From NCBI RefSeq assembly GCF_029582805.1, contig NZ_JAKKUT010000001.1, positions 303,068 to 367,067 of the forward strand: DNA of 64,000 nt. The letters run 5' to 3'. Source of the DNA: Candidatus Synechococcus calcipolaris G9 (GTDB taxonomy: Bacteria; Cyanobacteriota; Cyanobacteriia; Thermosynechococcales; Thermosynechococcaceae). The position numbers and the translations under genes were made by a program. This document shows, in pieces, positions 28,225 to 49,279 of the stretch (its first letter is position 1; each line of letters opens with the position of its first letter). Below the pieces are notes generated by a model. That model was given only the letters and a program-made list of their open reading frames with translations. It was not told the origin of the DNA and ran no database searches.

Positions 28225-29442
28225 ATGGCCCAGGGCCCCAAACAACAATTTTCCGCCATATCATTTATCTTTCTGACGATCTTCATCGACAGGTTTGGGG
28301 AAAGCTTAATTTTTCCCCTCCTACCTTTTCTCGTTGAACCCTTTGGCTTTGATGCCTTCTCCTTAGGATTGCTGGTCTCTAGTTTTGCGGCGGCCCAATT
28401 TTTTGCCGCTCCCATTCTCGGCTCCCTTTCCGATCACTATGGTCGTCGCCCCATTTTACTGATCTGTGTCTTTGGTACCGGGGTCGCCAATTTGATTTTT
28501 GCCGGAGCAACTCGGGGGGCATTCCTCTTTGGTGCGAGGGCCTTAGATGGGGCCACGGGTGGGGTTGCCTCCACGGCCCAGGCCTACATTTCCGATATTG
28601 CCGCCCCCCAGGATCGGGCCAAGCTCTTTGGGATTACGGGGGCCGCCTTTGGCCTCGGCTTTATTTTTGGCCCCGCCCTAGGGGGAGTCTTAGCAACGAT
28701 TTCCCTGACTTTGCCGGTTTTTGTAGCCGCAGGGGTAGCCTTTTTGAACTGTATCTTTGGCTATTTCACCCTGCCGGAGTCCTTGCCTAAGGATCAGCGC
28801 CGTACCCTAAAACTCCAGGATTTTAACCCCTTTCAATCCCTGACCTATCTCTGGGGTGGTCGGGGCATTCGCAGCTTGTTGGGGGCATTTTTTTCCTTTA
28901 GTCTGGCATTTTCAGCCTTTACCAGTGTGTATGTTCTTTTTCTCAATGCTCGGTTTGACTGGGGGCCGGGAGAAGCCGCCATCGTTTTTGTGATTATTGG
29001 CGTATTTAGTACCCTAGTTCAAGGCGGGTTAATTCGCATCCTGCTGCGGTATGTCAAGGAAATGCAGTTATGTCTATATGGTTTTCTTTGCCTGGGTTTA
29101 GGGTTAACCTTTGTGCTGATCACACCGACGGTGCATCCCTGGCCCTACATCGGCCTCTATAGCAGTGCGATCGCCATTGCCTTTGGGTTTGGCCTCGTTT
29201 TACCAGCCCTACGGGCATTAATCTGTAATCAAGTCTCCGATCAGGAGCAGGGGCAAGTGTTGGGTAGCTCCCAGGCCTTGCAAAGTATCGCAGCGGTACT
29301 CGGCCCCACCTGGGCGGGCTGGACCTTTGATAATGTGAATCCAAGTGCCCCCTTTAGTCAAAGTATCCTCTTATTCGGCCTCGCCGCCTTCCTGATTCTC
29401 TTCAATCGTCGCTATTATTTAGCAGCATCCAAAACACCCTAA
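28225..29442 (+). CDS. MFS transporter (TetA/drug-efflux like)
   Basis: 405 aa with twelve predicted spans. MFS motif A between TM2 and TM3 reads GSLSDHYGRRPILL, and a TM5 motif C-like stretch reads GITGAAFGLGFIFGPALGGV, typical of the drug:H+ antiporter-1 group. The substrate is unknown. Its stop codon overlaps that of the convergent Rieske oxygenase gene (29439-29442), so the two share no terminator space. Confidence 0.86.
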   Translation: MAQGPKQQFSAISFIFLTIFIDRFGESLIFPLLPFLVEPFGFDAFSLGLLVSSFAAAQFFAAPILGSLSDHYGRRPILLICVFGTGVANLIFAGATRGAFLFGARALDGATGGVASTAQAYISDIAAPQDRAKLFGITGAAFGLGFIFGPALGGVLATISLTLPVFVAAGVAFLNCIFGYFTLPESLPKDQRRTLKLQDFNPFQSLTYLWGGRGIRSLLGAFFSFSLAFSAFTSVYVLFLNARFDWGPGEAAIVFVIIGVFSTLVQGGLIRILLRYVKEMQLCLYGFLCLGLGLTFVLITPTVHPWPYIGLYSSAIAIAFGFGLVLPALRALICNQVSDQEQGQVLGSSQALQSIAAVLGPTWAGWTFDNVNPSAPFSQSILLFGLAAFLILFNRRYYLAASKTP

Positions 29443-30473
29443 CCGTTGTTGGTATCTAGAGTCACCAAGGGGGACGAGTCGGGCATTTCCTGCCACCAGC
29501 CCTTTTCATAGCATTTCTTGAGGAGCCGCCGATAACTGATCACCGTTGCATCAGAGGCCTGGAGAAGATCCTCACTGCTATTGAGAAAGGGAGAAATTAA
29601 CGGCTCCTGGGTTTTGACGGCCCGTTCATCCTCACTCAATAGACGTACCCCGGTTTTCCGAGTTTGCCCATCAATAAAGGGAAATTTCAGGAAATTCCGC
29701 ATCAAGGCCCATTTTGAAACCGTGACCGTTGGGCTAACGGGCACACTGGCAATAAACGTATCTAGGTAGAAATTATCAAACTTCAAACCAATAAAGGTAA
29801 TATTCGGCAGGCAAACCCGATACACCCGCTCCGTTTTTGCCTCCTTCCGGGAAATCCATTGCCATAACCCCGCCAGTCGTTTGATATTAATGGGCAACGT
29901 GGCTTCCGCTTCCCAATCTTGGTGGGTAACGGTATAGTCAGCAATCACCGCATCCGCCTGATCCCCCAAGGATTTACGATGCATGAACATGGTATGGGAG
30001 CAGTCAATGGTATTTTCCATCACCCGTGTAAAATGGGCATTCCAGGTATATTCGCCATAGACGCAACGCAGGCTAGGATCAGCAAACTGGGGAAATTCGG
30101 GAATGGGGGGGGCATCCGCCGGATCAATATCTCCCCAAAAGAGCCAAATAAAACCATATTTTTCCTGGACGGGATAGGTCTTGACTTGGCCACGTTTGGG
30201 AATGGCAATCCCTGGGCCATTGGCGGGAATATCCACACAGGCTCCCTCAGGATTATAGGTCCAGCCATGGTAGGGGCAACGAATACAGTCTCCTTCGACC
30301 CAGCCCAGGGAAAGGGCAGCACCACGATGAACACAGCGATCGCCTAGGGCAATAACCTCTCCGCCAAGGTTGCGGTAAAGAGCAATCTTTTCCCCCATTA
30401 GGGTGATGCCCAGGGGACGTTGCTTGAGGGCTTGACTCACCTCAACGGCATACCAAAAATTTTTAAGGGCCAT
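29439..30473 (-). CDS. Rieske-type ring-hydroxylating oxygenase, paralog 1
   Basis: 344 aa. The N-terminal Rieske 2Fe-2S site is CVHRGAALSLGW...CIRCPYHGW (CxH and CxxH ligands, about residues 45-70). The catalytic mononuclear iron site DCSHTMFMH is near residue 158 (D-x2-H-x4-H). It resembles the alpha subunits of PaO/VanA-like single-component oxygenases, which need a separate reductase, not seen here. The start MALKNFWYAVEVSQAL has the same pattern as its two upstream neighbours. The substrate is unknown: an aromatic compound or tetrapyrrole is possible. Last gene of the three-gene tandem. Confidence 0.87.
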   Translation of the reverse strand: MALKNFWYAVEVSQALKQRPLGITLMGEKIALYRNLGGEVIALGDRCVHRGAALSLGWVEGDCIRCPYHGWTYNPEGACVDIPANGPGIAIPKRGQVKTYPVQEKYGFIWLFWGDIDPADAPPIPEFPQFADPSLRCVYGEYTWNAHFTRVMENTIDCSHTMFMHRKSLGDQADAVIADYTVTHQDWEAEATLPINIKRLAGLWQWISRKEAKTERVYRVCLPNITFIGLKFDNFYLDTFIASVPVSPTVTVSKWALMRNFLKFPFIDGQTRKTGVRLLSEDERAVKTQEPLISPFLNSSEDLLQASDATVISYRRLLKKCYEKGWWQEMPDSSPLVTLDTNNG

Positions 30474-30489
30474 GGTAAAGTTTCCTATC

Positions 30490-31509
30490 CTAAAGGGTTT
30501 CAGTCACTAAGGGTTGGGGCAGTTCCCAGCCTTTTTCTTGGTAGGAACGCAAAAGTTTCCGGTAGGCAATAATCAACGCATCGGAAGCCACCAAAAGCTC
30601 TTGGTGAAAATCCGTGGGAGCCGCCAAGGGATAACAGGTTTGTACCACGTCTTGATCTTCCAGATAGGTTTTATAGGCATTTTCGTGGGAGTTACCATCG
30701 GCCCAGGGAAACTTGAGGAAATTGCGAAGCCCAATGTATTTAGCCAGGGTTGTTTTCCCATCTAGGGGAATACTAGTGGTGTAGTAAATGTATTTATAGC
30801 CCCGGAAGCCAAAGTCAATTTCAATGCGATTGATTGTGGGTAAGCACACTGTAATGGTTGTTAAGGAGTAGCGGTTTTCCTCTTTGAGTAAATACTTCAA
30901 AAAGGTGCGCCGTTTGGGGGCGGGAGCCTTGACCGTGGCCGTAGCAGAGTAGCCATTGGTGGTCACGTCATACTCATCCACTGTGGCGCGATCGCGGTTG
31001 CCAAAAAAGGGCGGATGGACAAAGGCCGCATGGGAAACATCTAGATTGCTTTCAATGACGCGGGTATAGTGGGCATTCCAGGTATATTCCCCATAGACGG
31101 CTCGCCACTGGGGATCCTCCAGTTCCGGCAATAGGTCTGGAATCGGGGCAGCCTCATTGATCGACCCATCGCCCACAAAGAGCCACACCATGCCATCCTT
31201 TTCTTGGACTGGATAGGTATCCACCCGCGCCCGCTTGGAAATGGGGACATCGGGTAAATCAGCGGGAATATCCACGCACTGCCCTTCGGCGTTGAATTTC
31301 CAGCCATGGTAGGGACAGCGCAAACACCCCTCCTCCAACCAACCGCGATGAAGAGCCGCACCACGATGGGCGCATTGATTATTAAGGGCAATCACCTGGC
31401 CCCGTGGATCTCGATATAAAACATACTGTTGCCCCATTAAGGTCACGGGGATGGGTTTATCTTTTACAGAACGGCTAAATTCCACCGCATACCAAAAGTT
31501 TTTTAGCAT
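30490..31509 (-). CDS. Rieske-type ring-hydroxylating oxygenase, paralog 2
   Basis: 339 aa. The Rieske site is CAHRGAALHRGWLEEGCLRC with PYHGW following, and the mononuclear iron site is DVSHAAFVH near residue 155. It starts MLKNFWYAVEFSRSV, like paralog 3. Its start overlaps the stop of paralog 3 by 7 bp (31503-31509) and paralog 1 follows 16 bp after its stop, so the tandem is one operon. All ligands are intact, arguing that each copy is active. Confidence 0.87.
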   Translation of the reverse strand: MLKNFWYAVEFSRSVKDKPIPVTLMGQQYVLYRDPRGQVIALNNQCAHRGAALHRGWLEEGCLRCPYHGWKFNAEGQCVDIPADLPDVPISKRARVDTYPVQEKDGMVWLFVGDGSINEAAPIPDLLPELEDPQWRAVYGEYTWNAHYTRVIESNLDVSHAAFVHPPFFGNRDRATVDEYDVTTNGYSATATVKAPAPKRRTFLKYLLKEENRYSLTTITVCLPTINRIEIDFGFRGYKYIYYTTSIPLDGKTTLAKYIGLRNFLKFPWADGNSHENAYKTYLEDQDVVQTCYPLAAPTDFHQELLVASDALIIAYRKLLRSYQEKGWELPQPLVTETL

Positions 31510-32552
31510 TGACCCATGACTCCTTCAGCAGAATCGGAACTGGTTTCTAAATCTTTGCCCTCGCTAATCCACCAACCACGATCGGCGTACTGGCGCAGGA
31601 GTTTGCGGTAGGCCACCTGGAGGGCATCGGAGGCTACCAAAACTTCGCTGCTTTGGTGAAAGGGCACAATGGCTGGCCGCATGGTAGCAATCACCTGACA
31701 ATCTTCCTCATAGGTTTGGATAATATTCTTGCGGGAATGGCCGTCTGCCCAGGAAAAGGGAAGAAAATTCCGCAGGCCAATCCATTGGGTGCGGGTAGTC
31801 GTGGCAGTGATCGGGGTATGGGCCCCAAAGTAAATGAAGCGATAGCCCCGGAATTTGAAATCCACATCAATTCGGTTCACTCCGGGCAAGTAAGCGGTTA
31901 ATTGGGCCGTGGTTAGGGGGCGATCGCGCTTGAGAATAAATTTAAGTAAGCCGACCCGCTTCGGGGGTTTTGAGACCGTTAATGCACTGACACTGCTAGG
32001 GGTAATATCTACGTCATAGCTGGGCACTACGGCATCATTTCGCAAACTAAAAAAAGATGAATGGACAAAGGGGGCATGGGAACTATCCATATTGCCTTCG
32101 GTGACGCGGCTAAAATGGGCAGGCCAAAGGGACTCACCATAGACGGCTCGCCAACCTGGAGTTGCATACTCGGGTAACGGGGGAATGGGCAATCCTTGGT
32201 CTGGAGGTAAATCCCCCCAATAGAGCCAAATCAGACCATATTTTTCTTGTACCGGATAGGTTTTTAGGTGGGCGCGTTTGGGAATCGTTGCATGATCATC
32301 GTTAGCTGGAATATGAACGCAGATACCCTCAGGGGTATAACGCCAACCATGGTAGGGGCAGGTGAGACAGCCCTGTTCAATCCAGCCCTGGGAGAGCTTA
32401 GCCCCCCGATGCAAGCAGTGATCCGCCATGGCCACCAATTCACCCTGGGGCGATCGCCAGAGGACAATATCCTGCCCTAGGACTTGCGTAGATTTGGGTT
32501 GTTGACCAACGGCAGTGGCCTGTTCAACTGCATACCAAGAATTTTTCAGCAT
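31503..32552 (-). CDS. Rieske-type ring-hydroxylating oxygenase, paralog 3
   Basis: 349 aa, first gene of the tandem. The Rieske site is CLHRGAKLSQGW...CLTCPYHGW and the iron site is DSSHAPFVH near residue 158. It begins MLKNSWYAVEQATAV. The C-terminal part with RFIYFGAHTPITATTTRTQW and NFLPFSWADG aligns well with paralogs 1 and 2, so the three arose by duplication and kept function. The operon promoter should lie in 32553-32690. Confidence 0.87.
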   Translation of the reverse strand: MLKNSWYAVEQATAVGQQPKSTQVLGQDIVLWRSPQGELVAMADHCLHRGAKLSQGWIEQGCLTCPYHGWRYTPEGICVHIPANDDHATIPKRAHLKTYPVQEKYGLIWLYWGDLPPDQGLPIPPLPEYATPGWRAVYGESLWPAHFSRVTEGNMDSSHAPFVHSSFFSLRNDAVVPSYDVDITPSSVSALTVSKPPKRVGLLKFILKRDRPLTTAQLTAYLPGVNRIDVDFKFRGYRFIYFGAHTPITATTTRTQWIGLRNFLPFSWADGHSRKNIIQTYEEDCQVIATMRPAIVPFHQSSEVLVASDALQVAYRKLLRQYADRGWWISEGKDLETSSDSAEGVMGQC

Positions 32553-41689: not shown

Positions 41690-41776
41690 TCCTAACGGCT
41701 TGGTTTTCAGCGGTGGCAAAGATTTTTAAGCCAGCACCAGAGTGTTGAGGCCATCCGCTGCAAAACCTGGTTAGGC
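41690..41776 (-). other. attC site of the higBA cassette
   Basis: 87 bp. The left core TCCTAAC and right core GTTAGGC are inverted. The inner arms TTTTCAGCGG and CCGCTGCAAAA pair with one extra base. The higA stop codon (TAA, 41771-41773 on the reverse strand) lies inside the right core. It is the terminal site of the array, 3 bp from chlG. Confidence 0.8.
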
Positions 41777-42058
41777 AACTGATAAACGTTTAACTTCTAT
41801 GTTGCCAACAGCTTGCTCAGCTTGCCATAAATCGTACTGCATTTGCTGATTGAGCCAACTTTCTGGAGATGTATCAAAGGCTTTTCCCAAGCGAATTGCC
41901 ATTTCGGGGCTAATACCTGCCCTACAATTCAAGATAGCAGATAGAGTTTTTCGACTTACACCCAGTGCCTCAGCAGCGTCTGTAACAGTCAGATTCAAAG
42001 GTTCGAGACACAGTTCTTTAAGAACTTCACCTGGATGTGGTGGATTATGCATTTTCAT
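41771..42058 (-). CDS. higA: HigA-type XRE antitoxin
   Basis: 95 aa. The N-terminus [17 protein letters not shown] leads into a helix-turn-helix with [20 protein letters not shown], then [20 protein letters not shown], which is the HigA/VapI pattern. It neutralises HigB and represses the operon. Its start overlaps the higB stop by 1 bp, and its stop lies within the attC core. It follows the toxin gene, the usual higBA order. Confidence 0.92.
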
Positions 42059-42336
42059 TAGTGGTAGTCCTCAAGATCGACATCACAAGCATCAACACCG
42101 TCAAAGGTGAACGTGATCCGCCAGTTTCCAGATACCCTCACCGCCCAGGTTCCTTTACGTTGCCCTGCAAGTTCATGAAGTATCAATCCGGGCAAGTTCA
42201 TGTCTTGCGGTGAAGTCGCAGCACTGAGACGAGCCAGAATCAGCCGAATTCGTTTGGCATGATTTGCCTGAATGCCTCGGGTGGTTCCCGACTCAAAGAA
42301 CTGCTCTAGTCCTCGATGCTTGAAACTGACTATCAT
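42058..42336 (-). CDS. higB: HigB-type RelE-superfamily mRNA interferase toxin
   Basis: 92 aa. Typical Hig[21 protein letters not shown] near the start and [20 protein letters not shown] then RITFTF near the end, carrying the conserved Arg and His residues. HigB cleaves ribosome-bound mRNA. It pairs with HigA in a complete cassette; such pairs are common in sedentary integrons and are thought to stabilise arrays. Confidence 0.92.
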
Positions 42337-42398: not shown

Positions 42399-42485
42399 GC
42401 CTAACGTTCCCCTTCAGCGGCGGCTAATAACCTTTGCATCTCTACTGAGATATTCCAACCGTCCGCGGCAAGGGGGTTGTTAGAC
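42399..42485 (-). other. attC site of the GIY-YIG cassette
   Basis: 87 bp from GCCTAAC to GTTAGAC. The arms GTTCCCCTTCAGCGG and CCGCGGCAAGGGGG pair with an extra G on one strand, and the inner segment TAACCTTTGCAT is shared with two other sites. It lies 4 bp beyond the stop of the 68-aa ORF. Confidence 0.85.
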
Positions 42486-42489
42486 CGCG

Positions 42490-43763: not shown

Positions 43764-43850
43764 GCGAACGGTTCCGCTCACCGGACGTAGACAACCTTTG
43801 CAGCTTAACCAACCAAACTCAACCGTTCCGGTGCAGCGGGATTGTTATAC
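43764..43850 (-). other. attC site of the peroxiredoxin cassette
   Basis: 87 bp. The left core GCGAAC is degenerate and the right core GTTATAC contains the peroxiredoxin stop codon. The arms CCGCTCACCGG and CCGGTGCAGCGG pair with one extra G, the typical extrahelical base, and the inner CAACCTTTGCAG is shared with other sites. Confidence 0.85.
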
Positions 43851-44405
43851 GGCGTGTTCTTGCAGCCAATTTATTACCTCATTGGCATTTCTATCAGGTG
43901 GAAAGACTGGATAGAAAACTTTCATAATCTTACCTTCTTCAATGATCAGCGTAACTCGCTTGATGAGATGCTTGCCTCCCACTTCAAACGTTGGCAACTT
44001 TAGCGTATTGGTAAGGTTCAATTCACGATCACTCAAAAGCTCGAAAGGTAAATGCAGCCGTGCCTTTACTTCTAACTGATAGTCAGTGCTTTGAGTGCTA
44101 AGACCGAAAACACTTGCACCCAATTCGTTTAGCTCTTGGTAATGATCTCGAAAGGTGCAGGACTGTGGCGTACATCCTCTGGCTCCGGGTATTGCATCCC
44201 ATCCATCAGGAAGAGAAATCCCAGGTTGCCCTGTCATGGGATAGCAATAAACCACGATACGACCTGCGATCGCTGATAAATCAACGCATTCACCATGAGT
44301 TGAAGGTAACGAGATCGACGGCAAAGCTATCCCCAGCAAATGATCGCAAGCACCATCATCTATTGGAATGGGCAGATCTTGCGGCAACGCTGTCAGCTTA
44401 TTCAT
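43845..44405 (-). CDS. Peroxiredoxin (AhpC/TSA-like)
   Basis: 186 aa from ATG 44405 (MNKLTALPQDL). The active-site region reads YPMTGQPGISLPDGWDAIPG then ARGCTPQSCTFRDHY, with two Cys residues 5 apart as in PrxQ-like enzymes. It reduces peroxides using thiol donors. The frame extends to 44528, but the first 41 codons run into the upstream attC site and match nothing in the family. It carries one HIP1 octamer. Confidence 0.87.
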   Translation of the reverse strand: MNKLTALPQDLPIPIDDGACDHLLGIALPSISLPSTHGECVDLSAIAGRIVVYCYPMTGQPGISLPDGWDAIPGARGCTPQSCTFRDHYQELNELGASVFGLSTQSTDYQLEVKARLHLPFELLSDRELNLTNTLKLPTFEVGGKHLIKRVTLIIEEGKIMKVFYPVFPPDRNANEVINWLQEHAV

Positions 44406-44482
44406 ATGGCTTTTTATGTCTGCGACATCCCTAATGCTAACAGATTGATTTGCAATCACTTCCTCAACCTGCAATCGAAGCC

Positions 44483-44568
44483 GTATAACGTTCGGGTTGA
44501 GCCGCTGCCAGCAACCTTTGCACAGCACCGACCAACTGTGTCAGTCCGCTCCAAGCGAATTGTTATGC
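44483..44568 (-). other. attC site of the first GNAT cassette (44563-45036)
   Basis: 86 bp from GTATAAC to GTTATGC. The arms GTTCGGGTTGAGC and GCTCCAAGCGAAT pair imperfectly, and the inner CAACCTTTGCAC matches the family. The stop codon of the GNAT gene lies in the right core. Confidence 0.83.
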
Positions 44569-45036
44569 CGCCTTATACAGCGACTTCTCCATTACGTAAT
44601 TGATGAATATTTCGCCCCGACAAGTTACCTTCTGCTCGTTAACGATTGAAAACCCCATACGTTGAAAAAATGGTTTTGCCGTGATGCTAGCTTCAGTGAT
44701 TAGATGGCTCACCCCCAAGCCTAACGCCTTTGCTTCAATCGCTTGATAAATTTGACTACCCACTCCACAACGTTGATAGTTTTTGCGGCAGTAAAAGCAG
44801 TCGATATGACCATTAGACTCTAGCTCTCCGAATCCAGCAATCACACCTTCATCGTCAGCAACATAGGTGAATCGATTTGAGCAGATCTTTTCCCAATCTC
44901 TGAAGTAAATATTGTTAGGTGCCCATGCCTCAACTTGATTACTTGAGTAATCGCGGATGTTTATTTCGCGTACTGTTTCATGAAACAACTGTGCTACTTT
45001 TTCTGCGTCTTGTTTTTCAAACAACCTTATTTTCAT
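44563..45036 (-). CDS. GNAT family N-acetyltransferase
   Basis: 157 aa. The acetyl-CoA motif A is CFYCRKNYQRCGVGSQIYQA, and LITEASITAKPFFQRMGFSI forms motif B. It resembles YafP-type acetyltransferases. The substrate is unknown; GNATs are among the most common integron cargo. Confidence 0.88.
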   Translation of the reverse strand: MKIRLFEKQDAEKVAQLFHETVREINIRDYSSNQVEAWAPNNIYFRDWEKICSNRFTYVADDEGVIAGFGELESNGHIDCFYCRKNYQRCGVGSQIYQAIEAKALGLGVSHLITEASITAKPFFQRMGFSIVNEQKVTCRGEIFINYVMEKSLYKAA

Positions 45037-45149
45037 AGGATCGCCTCATCGACAATCTAAAAACTGCCTCTTTTCCAGTAACCTCGCGCTAGTTCAACTC
45101 TAAACACTGACAGATAACTTCTAGCTACTTCCACCACCAAGAACTTGCG

Positions 45150-45237
45150 GCATAACGTTGCCCATCACCCGCCGCAGATAACTTCTGAGTTCTTACAGAC
45201 AGGCTCTCAACGGTCGGGTGCATGGGCGTTGTTAGGC
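45150..45237 (-). other. attC site of the two-gene cassette
   Basis: 88 bp from GCATAAC to GTTAGGC. The arms GTTGCCCATCACCCGCCG and CGGTCGGGTGCATGGGC pair with one extra G. It lies 41 bp downstream of the 301-aa ORF stop, the only attC here whose core does not hold or nearly touch its gene's stop codon. Confidence 0.86.
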
Positions 45238-45277
45238 GGCATTATATTATAAGGGAATAATAAAGACTTAATTATTC

Positions 45278-46183
45278 TCAACTTTCTGAGATAGAATCAG
45301 CACCCAACTGATTAGAAGTAATGCCATCGGCTTTAACAGCATTAATAAATTTATCAAGCTTAGATTTTGGTAGATTACGAGCTTCCCAATTAGGATAATT
45401 AAAAGTCAGCCAATCTCTACAGTAACTTTGCTGTAAAAGTTCTCGCATAACCCTCTTAACAGCTTCGCGAACACCTCTCTTTTTTTCAGTCGATAAATAA
45501 GCCCATATTCCAATCATTGCATCACAAATATCTTCAACTGAAAATTCATATCTTTTCCTAATAAGAAAAGCTACAACTTGTTGAATCACACCATCTGTAA
45601 ATCTTTGATCTCTCAAATTTTCAATTGGAATAGGAAGATAACCTTCAGGGATTCTCTTGAACTTCATGTTTTCTGTAAGAATCAATGATAGTTCAGTGTC
45701 ACGGATATTACCTGAATGAAACTCAATACAATATTCGCCTGTAGGTACTCGGCAAAAAGAGCATAAGAGTAACCTGTCACTATTTGTACTGTCAATAATA
45801 TCTTTAAATGTCTGTAATGAAGTGGGCAAAACAGTTACCCAAAGACTACAAAGTCTACAAGCGTCTAACGCAACACGAGCACTATTTATTAAGTCGTTTG
45901 CGTCTACAAGAAGGTAACGCCGAATCTGCTCTCCTTTTTCGTAGCTTAATGAGTTTGCAGCAGTCCATTCTGTTAAGAGAGTGTGTTTTCTAGCAGGCGA
46001 ATAAACAATTGCTTCTGGATTGACAGTATTGCCTTGCGATGTGAAGGAAGGCTCAATGCTATGGATACTGTAACCAAGTTTATGAATGGATACAGAATGA
46101 GGTCTTAGTAAAGGATGCTTACTAAATAAACCAATGAAAAGATTGGTCATTTGCAAGTTAAAAAAACTGATTTCCAGAGTCAT
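45278..46183 (-). CDS. Unknown cassette protein A (301 aa), possible nuclease fold
   Basis: 301 aa, AT-rich and without HIP1 sites, unlike the host chromosome. No family recognised. Residues 57-90 read PEAIVYSPARKHTLLTEWTA then a KGEQIRRY end. A short acidic-then-Lys pattern before a Q-I-R-R-Y helix recalls some PD-(D/E)xK nucleases, but the expected ExK is not intact. The C-terminal half is helical, with RGVREAVKRVMRELLQQSYC. It overlaps the upstream ORF by 26 bp, implying coupled translation. An internal Met at residue 12 is an alternative start. Confidence 0.7.
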   Translation of the reverse strand: MTLEISFFNLQMTNLFIGLFSKHPLLRPHSVSIHKLGYSIHSIEPSFTSQGNTVNPEAIVYSPARKHTLLTEWTAANSLSYEKGEQIRRYLLVDANDLINSARVALDACRLCSLWVTVLPTSLQTFKDIIDSTNSDRLLLCSFCRVPTGEYCIEFHSGNIRDTELSLILTENMKFKRIPEGYLPIPIENLRDQRFTDGVIQQVVAFLIRKRYEFSVEDICDAMIGIWAYLSTEKKRGVREAVKRVMRELLQQSYCRDWLTFNYPNWEARNLPKSKLDKFINAVKADGITSNQLGADSISES

Positions 46184-47360
46184 CCTGTACGTCCACTAAT
46201 CGACTAAAAGTCCTTTGGAGGTTTGTGTAAAAACGAATTGCCGTATTACCACAAGCTCCCATTGAGAGATACATACAAATAATTTCTGGATATATTTCAA
46301 AAAAGAGTTTCGCTCCATTGTGTAAATCTACAGCAAGAACGCTGCGACCTTCCCCGCTAGAGGTTGGTCTAGGTGTTCCCCAAAGCTTAAAAGGCATTTT
46401 CCCTGAGAACACTACCTCACAAAAAAGATCAACATCTTCGATTTGACTTTCAGATAGATCAAAAACGATAGGATTTCCCGTAACATGCCATTTTGTTTCA
46501 TCAGCAGTAGTCAGAATAATGTAATCGCTTTCAATTTGATAAACTTTATTTGCATAAGCATTTTGAACCTTATTAATTAAAGCTTGATGTGCAGCAAAGG
46601 AAGTTCCATTGGTAGTAAACTTTCCATTAAAATAAAGCGTTTCAATTGTGAATTCTTCTCTGGCGTGAGGTCTAGAGTATTTCATCCTCACATTCGCAAG
46701 AGAAGTCTGAGTCGCTAATTCCTTGTCTCGATTCATTAAATCCCACAACAGCCTAGATTCTCGCTGACTGCCAGAAAATTTTAGACTAAATGGTTCAGAA
46801 TTTACATATTCATTATTTTCTTTTTTAAAGAAGGAGCGGTCATGCTCAAATCGAAACCCTCTAGGTTCACTTTCTTTCTGAGTTGATTCAAGCAAGCCCG
46901 ACCATAGCCAGGTTCTGTCTAAATAGGTTTTTGAATCAACAAGTCTATTAAGTATGTCATCTAGATATTGGGCACTAGACACAGAATATGCTCGCCAAAA
47001 CCTCCGATTTGAGTCACTAATAGTATCTAGATAAAGAGTGATTGTCTCCTTGTTCCACGCCCAAGCAACTGTATAGAAACCTGCTTCGTTCGTTTCAACA
47101 ACATGAGCGTCGCTACTCTTTCTTTTTTTGCCTTCAGCTTGCACGCTTAAAAGGTCACAAAGATAGTTTCCCTCATCCCTTCTTTCTAGTTGTTGAGGTT
47201 TCCAGTCACATTCTAATAGAAAGGATTTAACAAATGAGGTGCCCCTTTCAACTTCTCCTTTGTCACGGAGTTGCTCGTATGAGTGCTGCATCTTTCTCTC
47301 TAGATATAAATACAGCTCCTCACGATTCTCTACATCTTGTCTCCCTTGCTGACGCGCCAT
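46158..47360 (-). CDS. Unknown cassette protein B (400 aa)
   Basis: 400 aa, AT-rich, no HIP1 sites. No family recognised. The N-terminus is charged and helical (NREELYLYLERKMQHSYEQL). The middle part is beta-rich and the C-terminus holds SYLS-like MYLSMGACGNTAIRFYTNLQ. No ATPase, nuclease or helix-turn-helix motif is visible, and no signal peptide or membrane span. It is the first gene of a two-gene cassette and overlaps protein A, so the pair is likely a functional unit. Confidence 0.7.
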   Translation of the reverse strand: MARQQGRQDVENREELYLYLERKMQHSYEQLRDKGEVERGTSFVKSFLLECDWKPQQLERRDEGNYLCDLLSVQAEGKKRKSSDAHVVETNEAGFYTVAWAWNKETITLYLDTISDSNRRFWRAYSVSSAQYLDDILNRLVDSKTYLDRTWLWSGLLESTQKESEPRGFRFEHDRSFFKKENNEYVNSEPFSLKFSGSQRESRLLWDLMNRDKELATQTSLANVRMKYSRPHAREEFTIETLYFNGKFTTNGTSFAAHQALINKVQNAYANKVYQIESDYIILTTADETKWHVTGNPIVFDLSESQIEDVDLFCEVVFSGKMPFKLWGTPRPTSSGEGRSVLAVDLHNGAKLFFEIYPEIICMYLSMGACGNTAIRFYTNLQRTFSRLVDVQDDSGNQFF

Positions 47361-47577
47361 AGAACGACCTATGTGTTATTGATTCCTTCGAGAAGGCTGA
47401 CTCTAGCGAGACAACCCTCAACTGTATCAATGAAACTCACACCTCATAACTAGAGTAACCGAATATAAACCATCTTCACGGAGAAAAATGTCTCTTCCAC
47501 GACATTGAAACGCTTTGAATTTTAATCATCTGAGAAAAACAGAGGAAACAAAGGGGATCTCTTGCCAAGACTAAGCA
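47361..47577. other. Non-coding leader of the two-gene cassette
   Basis: 217 bp between the first attC site and the 400-aa ORF, longer than in the other cassettes. It is AT-rich and could contain a cassette-borne promoter. No ORF or RNA gene recognised. Confidence 0.5.
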
Positions 47578-47664
47578 GCCTAACGTTCCCGCTCACCGGA
47601 CGCAGAGCGCTCCACATCCCCACCGATAACTCAAATTCGTTCCGGTGCAGCGGGATTGTTATGC
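47578..47664 (-). other. attC site of the first cassette (GNAT at 47659)
   Basis: 87 bp from GCCTAAC to GTTATGC. The arms GTTCCCGCTCACCGG and CCGGTGCAGCGGGAT pair nearly perfectly with one extra G. The GNAT stop codon lies inside the right core. This is the clearest attC in the array. Confidence 0.9.
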
Positions 47665-48138
47665 GGCAGCAATTCCCAGTGCCTTACGGAAAATAATTTT
47701 GTCGTCTCCAGCCTTGTAAAATTCTCGAATTCTCGCTTCCTCGTCATAACCACTCTTTCGATAAAATGCACGAACGTATTCAAAGTCTTTCAGTCCGGAC
47801 GTTTCTACCAGTAGCACACGCTCACCATGCTTAGTCAGCATTTGCTCAATATGGCGCAACAAAGCGGCTCCGCGTCCCTGTCTTTGGTGGTTGGGATGAA
47901 TAGCGATTAGATAGAGATTCCACGTCCCCTCTGTCATTCGTTCTGGCGCAACGTAGGCAATGCCCACTAGCTCATTATCGTGGTCGCTAAACCACATACC
48001 CTGACTGTCTGTTTTGTCACTGAAATGCTGATTTAGCATTTGGGCGAGTTCTTCAATTTGATTTGACTCAAAAAGTCCTGTCGCTTCCGCCAAAGCAAGT
48101 AATGCATTCGTGTCATTGGGCGTGGTCAATCGAATCAT
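47659..48138 (-). CDS. GNAT family N-acetyltransferase
   Basis: 159 aa. Acetyl-CoA motif A is IAIHPNHQRQGRGAALLRHI and motif B has YVRAFYRKSGYDEEARIREF. The substrate is unknown. It is the cassette closest to the integrase remnant, i.e. the most recently acquired position in an active integron. Confidence 0.89.
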   Translation of the reverse strand: MIRLTTPNDTNALLALAEATGLFESNQIEELAQMLNQHFSDKTDSQGMWFSDHDNELVGIAYVAPERMTEGTWNLYLIAIHPNHQRQGRGAALLRHIEQMLTKHGERVLLVETSGLKDFEYVRAFYRKSGYDEEARIREFYKAGDDKIIFRKALGIAAA

Positions 48139-48436
48139 AACGAGTTTTAGTCAAAGCCTTCACTTTTGCTTCCATTATTCAAGCGCCAACATTAAAATTC
48201 CCCACTACCTCAATGAGAAATTCCTGAGACGTTTGCAATTAACAGACAACCTTTCAACTACTGCCCCAACCGTTGGTTTAAGCCGCATAACTACTGATTA
48301 GGCAGCGATTAGCAGCCCAACATACCTAAGATTTAGGAAACTGCATCCTCCATAACCAAACATCGCCAGAATTGTAGCACATCAATATTGAGGTATCAAA
48401 AATTGCTAAATCTAGCATATACAAAACTTCATGGTT
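48139..48436. other. attI-like region upstream of the first cassette
   Basis: About 300 bp without an ORF. On the minus strand a GTTATGCGGC core (48282-48291) matches the junction sequence seen at the cassette borders and lies where the attI insertion point is expected. The full attI with its integrase-binding sites cannot be confirmed. An ACAACCTTTCAA segment near 48247 resembles the inner segment shared by attC sites, hinting at a decayed attC. Confidence 0.45.
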
Positions 48437-48470
48437 CACTAAAACCCTTAACTGGTAAGGGTTTTTAGTC
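48437..48470. terminator. Strong bidirectional hairpin terminator
   Basis: AAAACCCTTA and TAAGGGTTTT form a perfect 10-bp stem with a 5-base loop, extended by ACT/AGT and followed by T-rich sequence on both strands. It lies between the attI-like region and the integrase remnant. Confidence 0.75.
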
Positions 48471-48479
48471 TTTAAAAAG

Positions 48480-48770
48480 GTGAATGTTATACGGAATCAA
48501 GCAGATATGCACCTTAGCCTTAAAGGACTACAAGCCTTTGCTGCCAAGAGTTATGCTGCTAAAGTAAGAGAATATTATGCTGCATCTGTTTCCATGGAAT
48601 CCTTGCCCCCAGATACTCCCAAGCGGAAACTATTAGATCAAGTCCGCGATGCCATCAGACTAAAACACTATAGCTACCGCACTGAACAAAGTGAGGCTGC
48701 CTCAAAAATACGAGCAACCTCAGCATTAACGCGGATTGTAATCGTTTTAGTTTCCATAGCAGTTATTTAG
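48480..48770 (+). pseudogene. Truncated integron integrase (IntI) remnant
   Basis: A 96-codon frame. From an internal ATG at 48594 it reads MESLPPDTPKRK, then LLDQVRDAIRLKHYSYRTEQ, which matches the opening of IntI integrases (LDQ-R--IR--HYS-RTEQ in IntI1). After RTEQ the match ends and the frame reads a different hydrophobic sequence before TAG. The core-binding remainder and the catalytic R-H-R-Y domain are absent, so it cannot recombine DNA. Orientation is opposite to the cassettes, as expected for intI. Confidence 0.75.
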
Positions 48771-48892
48771 TCTATAAACGAGGTAATCTATTTTTTTTTG
48801 TAAATAATAGAGAGAAACAAGCGACTCATGCCATTGCCATACCCAAATGCAATGTTTCGTTGTAGTGCTGAATAAAGTTCCAAATCGCTTCC

Positions 48893-49279
48893 TCATGAAG
48901 TGGAGTGAGACAGATAATGGCGAAGTCGCATCAATGCCAGGGTTTGACCCAATTCTAGGGGCAGCAGGGATACCCCCTCCAAACTAGATTGAATCCAGTT
49001 CTCTCCCCAAAGCCATTCTTGCCAGCCGTCGATTCCTTGCCCCAGGATTAAAACCAGGCGATCGCCACTGATGGATTTCACTTGATGGTCAATGGTCAGG
49101 GGGCCCAATTTACTTTGGAAGACCAGTCCGGTTTCTAGGCGATCCGGTAGGGGGTGGCTCAATTGCTGGGGCCAGAGCCAGGCTTGGATCTCCTCGGGCC
49201 GGGTGAGGCAATCCCGCAGTTGACTGGCAGAGGCGGGAATTTCAATCCGAATTTGACTACGTTGGAATTGACCGAGCAT
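48893..49279 (-). CDS. SRPBCC/START-like protein
   Basis: 128 aa. The layout fits a small polyketide-cyclase/START-like fold: RIEIPASASQLRDCLTRPEE then IQAWLWPQ, GPLTIDHQVKSISGDRLVLI, and a C-terminal helix LELGQTLALMRLRHYL. Ligand unknown. It is conserved in form with other cyanobacterial hypotheticals and is divergent from hemC. Confidence 0.6.
   Translation of the reverse strand: MLGQFQRSQIRIEIPASASQLRDCLTRPEEIQAWLWPQQLSHPLPDRLETGLVFQSKLGPLTIDHQVKSISGDRLVLILGQGIDGWQEWLWGENWIQSSLEGVSLLPLELGQTLALMRLRHYLSHSTS

Follow-up and report, generated by a model that had tools for sequence, protein, structure and literature searches.

A strictly paired two-gene integron cassette of Candidatus Synechococcus calcipolaris G9, with relatives in Archaea and Bacteria, as a candidate defence module

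The cassette and its two genes

The window, i.e., the whole stretch of 64,000 nucleotides that was analyzed, contains an integron cassette that is filled by two genes, here called A and B, and is located between two attC sites. The parts of the cassette and its boundaries are as follows.

47582-47667, minus strand: attC of the preceding (GNAT) cassette, which bounds the A-B cassette (repeat alignment and hairpin folding)
47361-47577, minus strand: cassette leader, 217 bp
46158-47360, minus strand: gene A, open reading frame of 400 aa
46158-46183, minus strand: overlap of the end of A with the start of B, 26 bp
45278-46183, minus strand: gene B, open reading frame of 301 aa, encoding a putative RecB-like PD-(D/E)xK-type protein
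45153-45240, minus strand: attC at the 3' end of the A-B cassette (repeat alignment and hairpin folding)

Both genes are genuine, because their scores with hidden Markov models built from relatives (261 bits for A and 82 bits for B, window rows left out) are far above those of shuffled controls (999 each), the best of which reached 5.7 bits for A and 5.2 bits for B. Overlapping or nearly abutting starts are also found in the relatives, and the 26 bp overlap makes translational coupling of A and B likely. A sigma-70-like site was not found within the leader; the nearest match is located at 47693-47720, upstream of the attC.

A sequence-only reading of this DNA had described two overlapping genes of these lengths in an AT-rich cassette with a leader of its own, and this description was reproduced in full, the GC content of the A-B region being 37-38% vs. 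approximately 50%. The same reading had cited the lack of HIP1 sites. HIP1 occurs 63 times in the 64 kb and is indeed absent over the array as a whole (44274-49057), but for the 2.1 kb cassette alone the absence is not significant, because only about two copies are expected there, and it does not serve as evidence for the cassette.

The integron array

Further elements of the array were recognized on both sides of the cassette.

42402-42488: attC-like repeat
43766-43853: attC-like repeat
44486-44571: attC-like repeat
48480-48770, plus strand: truncated N-terminus of an integron integrase (ESLPPDTPKRKLLDQVRDAIRLKHYSYRTEQS), divergent from the cassettes and adjoining the array, with no remaining Pfam domain

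The five attC-like repeats align with one another. Those flanking A-B fold as long hairpins (z -3.3 to -3.6 for the first; weaker, z -1.9 to -2.4, for the second), and the unit thereby shows the bounding, hairpin-capable attC sites that define an integron cassette. The other cassettes encode two GNAT acetyltransferases, a redoxin and a DUF1810 protein, with a GIY-YIG protein at the far end. Just beyond this far end a HigBA-like toxin-antitoxin pair was noted by eye (41771-42336, minus strand). Three tandem genes for Rieske-type oxygenases of approximately 340 aa each, also noted by eye, are located elsewhere in the window (29439-32552, minus strand).

The peptide KRKLLDQVRDAIRLKHYSYRTEQS is common to the integrase remnant at 48480-48770 (plus strand) and to a second remnant at G000 C2:1916359-1916550 (L084), and both are truncated or internally deleted integron integrases. 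The peptide of the first is found in a partial TIGR02249 match elsewhere in the genome. An intact integron integrase was not found in the genome, which yielded fragments only, the best TIGR02249 match reaching 76.9 bits over 64 positions (cut-off 265).

Pairing and distribution

At all 26 loci in which both families were detected, which span Halobacteria, a Methanocaldococcus jannaschii plasmid, Bacillaceae plasmids, one viral contig and the window, B directly follows A on the same strand, and the two genes mostly overlap or are a few bases apart. When the families were searched independently in 391 haloarchaeal genomes, A was found in 24, B in 21 and both in 20 (Fisher p ~1e-28); the sole B without an A (L083) is a remnant that is truncated at its N-terminus and adjoins a type IIG-like enzyme. 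Searches of plasmids with tblastn detected A in Halobacterium hubeiense, Methanocaldococcus jannaschii, Lysinibacillus irui and Metabacillus, and the gene directly after A was recognized by the B family profile in four of four cases. One pair is located on a Bacillota-like (pro)viral contig, and more were obtained from haloarchaea. The pair is sporadic, occurring in approximately 6% of the haloarchaeal genomes, and among the sampled genomes of the window's phylum, class and order no further pair was found beyond the window's own genome.

A second, distant archaeal subfamily of A (approximately 346 aa) was found when the same archaeal phylum was sampled more widely. A homolog of B is located directly downstream of A at eight of its 12 loci, and profile comparison supports the homology of both proteins (probability 99.9 for A and 97.7 for B).

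Some individual loci depart from the general pattern. In L047 an internal stop is present inside A. In L103 (2906-6762) an A of the second subfamily is separated from a 98-aa fragment of B by transposase-looking genes, so that this pair was probably broken by insertion. L056 (8764-10938, genome G932) contains a highly divergent homolog of A, which scores 252 bits with a profile of which it is itself a member; the gene after it, of 304 aa, has a B-like start, lacks ExK and was missed by the B profile.

Gene B

The motif of B comprises the following stretch, as read from the sequence.

45914-46018, minus strand: active-site-like motif of B, P56-E57 ... E72-W73-T74 ... K83 ... Q86-xxx-Y90

The acidic/Lys/QxRRY pattern at residues 57-90, on which a loose likeness to PD-(D/E)xK nucleases had been proposed, is real (P56-E57...E72-W73-T74...K83...Q86-I-R-R-Y90). 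The likeness itself stands for the relatives, which carry the full motif, but is incomplete in window B, which is devoid of the canonical ExK lysine. The order P-D ... (D/E)-x-K ... Q-x-x-x-Y of RecB-like PD-(D/E)xK proteins (QxxxY branch) is found at 22 of 26 loci, and motif order and spacing are the same in most relatives of B. Regarding motif II, PD in most relatives corresponds to PE (P56-E57) in the window, which retains the acidic residue. Regarding motif III, (D/E)-x-K, the window has E72-W73-T74, in which Thr replaces the lysine. Q-x-x-x-Y is present in the window (Q86-IRR-Y90), its Q and Y being conserved in 23 of 26 sequences.

Window B and the second archaeal subfamily differ from the RecB-like layout in having ExT/S together with a lysine seven residues before the motif tyrosine (Y-7), not ExK. 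At the place of ExK, ELT (or DIS) is found in the second subfamily, whose lysine at Y-7 is invariant (8/8 sequences). K83 of the window is located at Y-7 as well, and a profile alignment pairs the lysines of the window and the second subfamily. Active-site lysines of the PD-(D/E)xK superfamily are known to move. It is therefore possible, judging from the aligned sequences, that window B is a shifted-lysine variant in which K83 substitutes for the ExK lysine. The proposal that window B is dead was dropped once the subfamily with ExT/S and a Y-7 lysine appeared; window B need not be dead, because its Y-7 lysine matches the invariant one of the archaeal ExT subfamily.

A structure model of B (5-row alignment) was weak (pLDDT 44.8, pTM 0.31), and its fold matches were assorted, with Z below 5. 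Because the model is poor (pLDDT 45), the nuclease fold proposed for B, with an alpha-beta3-alpha-beta core, rests on the motifs.

Three haloarchaeal Bs (L053-L055) lack the nuclease motif. In all three of these loci a gene for a pentapeptide-repeat protein with a C-terminal Ion_trans_2-like part is located within approximately 130 bp of A and divergent from it.

L053 7204-8808, minus strand: pentapeptide-channel gene
L054 10152-11684, plus strand: pentapeptide-channel gene
L055 10189-11733, plus strand: pentapeptide-channel gene, assigned by sequence likeness only

Among the three, the TLGYGD filter is kept in L053 only. No such neighbor with pentapeptide repeats and an ion-channel-like part was found at the other haloarchaeal loci scanned, which suggests a possible exchange of the effector at L053-L055.

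Gene A

Members of the A family measure approximately 345-440 aa. About fifteen residues, scored over 20-25 sequences, are invariant (K45, E50, R120, D148, W151, T249, H258, Y269, E277, G328, D345, H347, C370, N372 and R376); neither a Walker A nor any other recognizable catalytic motif was found in A. In the tree of A the branch of the window row is long and poorly supported, and no nearest relative is therefore claimed for window A. The structure model of A (5-row alignment) was weak overall (pLDDT 53), with one confidently modelled part.

46191-46472, minus strand: C-terminal domain of A, residues 297-390, beta-alpha-beta4-alpha, pLDDT ~65-83

The best fold matches of this domain were KA1, RocCOR, RnlA N-repeat and TBP-like domains (Z 5-7), a likeness between models and structures that may reflect a common arrangement or chance; fold searches with the models of A and B gave no match above Z 8. 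A stand-alone copy of the domain was observed on a Natronosalvus plasmid, and short proteins that consist of the domain alone are encoded on haloarchaeal plasmids with no recognized B (L008 5959-6399, L088 6001-6318).

Comparison with known families and systems

Pfam, PADLOC and NCBIfam yielded nothing for window A or B. No defence family of PADLOC-DB 2.0.0 matched them, the relatives giving one chance match (E 0.018), and a sequence-profile search of the PDB gave nothing credible for either protein. What the sequence-only reading had presented as a coupled pair of unrecognized proteins is borne out: homologs of A and B co-occur almost perfectly, and the outcomes that this reading had named as refuting it (homologs that never co-occur, or a housekeeping family) did not arise.

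Family matches of the pair are limited to two PHROGs, neither with an assigned function: phrog_22469 for A (E 1e-33) and phrog_27163 for haloarchaeal relatives of B (E down to 6e-16). Window B falls short of phrog_27163, and the match table does not present the two as a pair. Because PHROG families exist for both proteins, copies in viruses or proviruses have been recorded. When viral contigs were scanned, neither window B nor two relatives of A nor two alignments of A subgroups detected any relatives; one relative was found there, by the A1 alignment only. Window A, L006 A, L041 A and L041 B were all without a tblastn match in INPHARED phages. Open-licence papers were found to mention neither the pair nor its protein accessions or PHROGs, and the sole literature match to the MJECL tags was a paper that deals with histones of archaea.

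In its fold, the C-terminal domain of A weakly resembles the N-repeated domain of Escherichia coli RnlA, of the anti-T4 system RnlAB (Z 5.8, rmsd 4.0, 84 residues), both falling in a widespread alpha/beta fold group to which KA1 and TBP-like domains also belong. No sequence support was found for RnlA as a homolog of A (hhalign E 0.41, one RnlA sequence); RnlB compared with B gave an hhalign E of 0.27, and B is not an RnlB-type antitoxin.

Genomic context

The loci are located on plasmids, a (pro)viral contig, an integron cassette and haloarchaeal chromosomes. Haloarchaeal neighbors include PLD-SNF2 helicases (DISARM/PbeA type), type IIG and type I methyltransferases, OLD ATPases and phage integrases. 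At least one of PLD-SNF2 helicase, type IIG enzyme, type I methyltransferase or OLD ATPase was found near 10 of 25 loci (counting the near duplicates L045 and L046) vs. none of 17 control regions scanned with the same queries, a contrast that is biased upwards because the neighbor queries were drawn from the neighbors themselves. The control regions contained mostly housekeeping families and scattered PADLOC matches.

PLD-SNF2 helicases and methyltransferases of DISARM, BREX and Pbe (CxC-ABC-DndE) adjoin several A-B loci; PbeA is a fusion of an HKD DNase with an SF2 helicase (PMC10853773). However, A and B are not components of these systems, given that neither has a PADLOC match, and most A-B loci lack the genes in question. 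L045 (443-10149) and L046 (8838-18557), from two genomes, show the same block of A-B, PLD-SNF2 helicase and type IIG-like methyltransferase, oppositely oriented; A-B might be an accessory to a larger restriction system formed by this block. SbcCD-like genes were seen by eye to adjoin L109, a locus of the second subfamily.

Proposed function

A and B are strictly paired, the motif of B is conserved, and the loci are accessory in location. On balance we lean towards A-B being an unnamed module of two genes that moves horizontally and whose most likely role is to protect the replicon carrying it from foreign DNA, with B as the nuclease effector and A as the partner for recognition or control. B would act as a RecB-like PD-(D/E)xK-type nuclease, and A, co-produced from the coupled operon, would recognize a target or signal and control B, a sensor or targeting role. 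In the window copy, K83, seven residues before the motif Tyr, may stand in for the ExK lysine, which is Thr here. The defence or toxin module already proposed by the sequence-only reading is partly supported, by the unrecognized coupled pair, by the nuclease motif of the relatives and by the plasmid, provirus, restriction and DISARM-like surroundings, but not by a canonical ExK lysine in window B, nor by HIP1 as evidence for the cassette.

A wider form of this proposal is speculative, and we would rather doubt it than adopt it: A-B would be a new immune system of Bacteria and Archaea, with A as the common recognition partner of an exchangeable effector, which would be, in most lineages, a nuclease whose active site has one of two layouts and, where the motif has decayed (L053-L055), a pentapeptide-repeat/ion-channel-like protein.

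Overlapping genes that always occur together on plasmids, on proviruses and in an integron cassette would also be expected of a toxin-antitoxin-like or plasmid-addiction module, in which one protein is toxic, the other neutralizes it and the benefit is maintenance of the replicon. Chromosomal cassette arrays often carry toxin-antitoxin pairs, and the HigBA-like pair is located immediately beyond this array. However, A and B are large (~300-440 aa), neither resembles any toxin-antitoxin family, and several loci are chromosomal and adjoin restriction genes, which leaves addiction an unlikely explanation.

A decaying relic in the window, i.e., a module inactive here after loss of the catalytic lysine in a frozen integron with no working integrase, is improbable to a similar degree. 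The change from ExK to ExT in window B, the truncated integrase beside the array with no full one found in the genome, and the leader devoid of a sigma-70-like promoter are what a relic would show, but neither reading frame is shortened and nearly all other conserved positions are retained in both, ExT with the Y-7 lysine is conserved across a whole subfamily, and the change extends over adjacent residues, unlike a recent knock-out.

That the pair serves plasmids and proviruses as an accessory in DNA processing, i.e., in repair or recombination and not in immunity, is quite improbable: the RecB-like motif of B, the plasmid and provirus locations and the SbcCD-like genes beside L109 would fit, but the pair is sporadic among related genomes, is often near restriction systems and recurs as the same isolated pair on unrelated replicons.

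If protection against foreign DNA is indeed its role, A-B would be an unnamed defence module that is absent from the curated family libraries searched and frequent enough, at ~6% of the sampled haloarchaeal genomes, to concern archaeal virology. At 2 kb, the A-B cassette is small enough for transfer as a single integron cassette. The loci, the conserved residues and the natural active-site variant are ready material for testing a role in defence.
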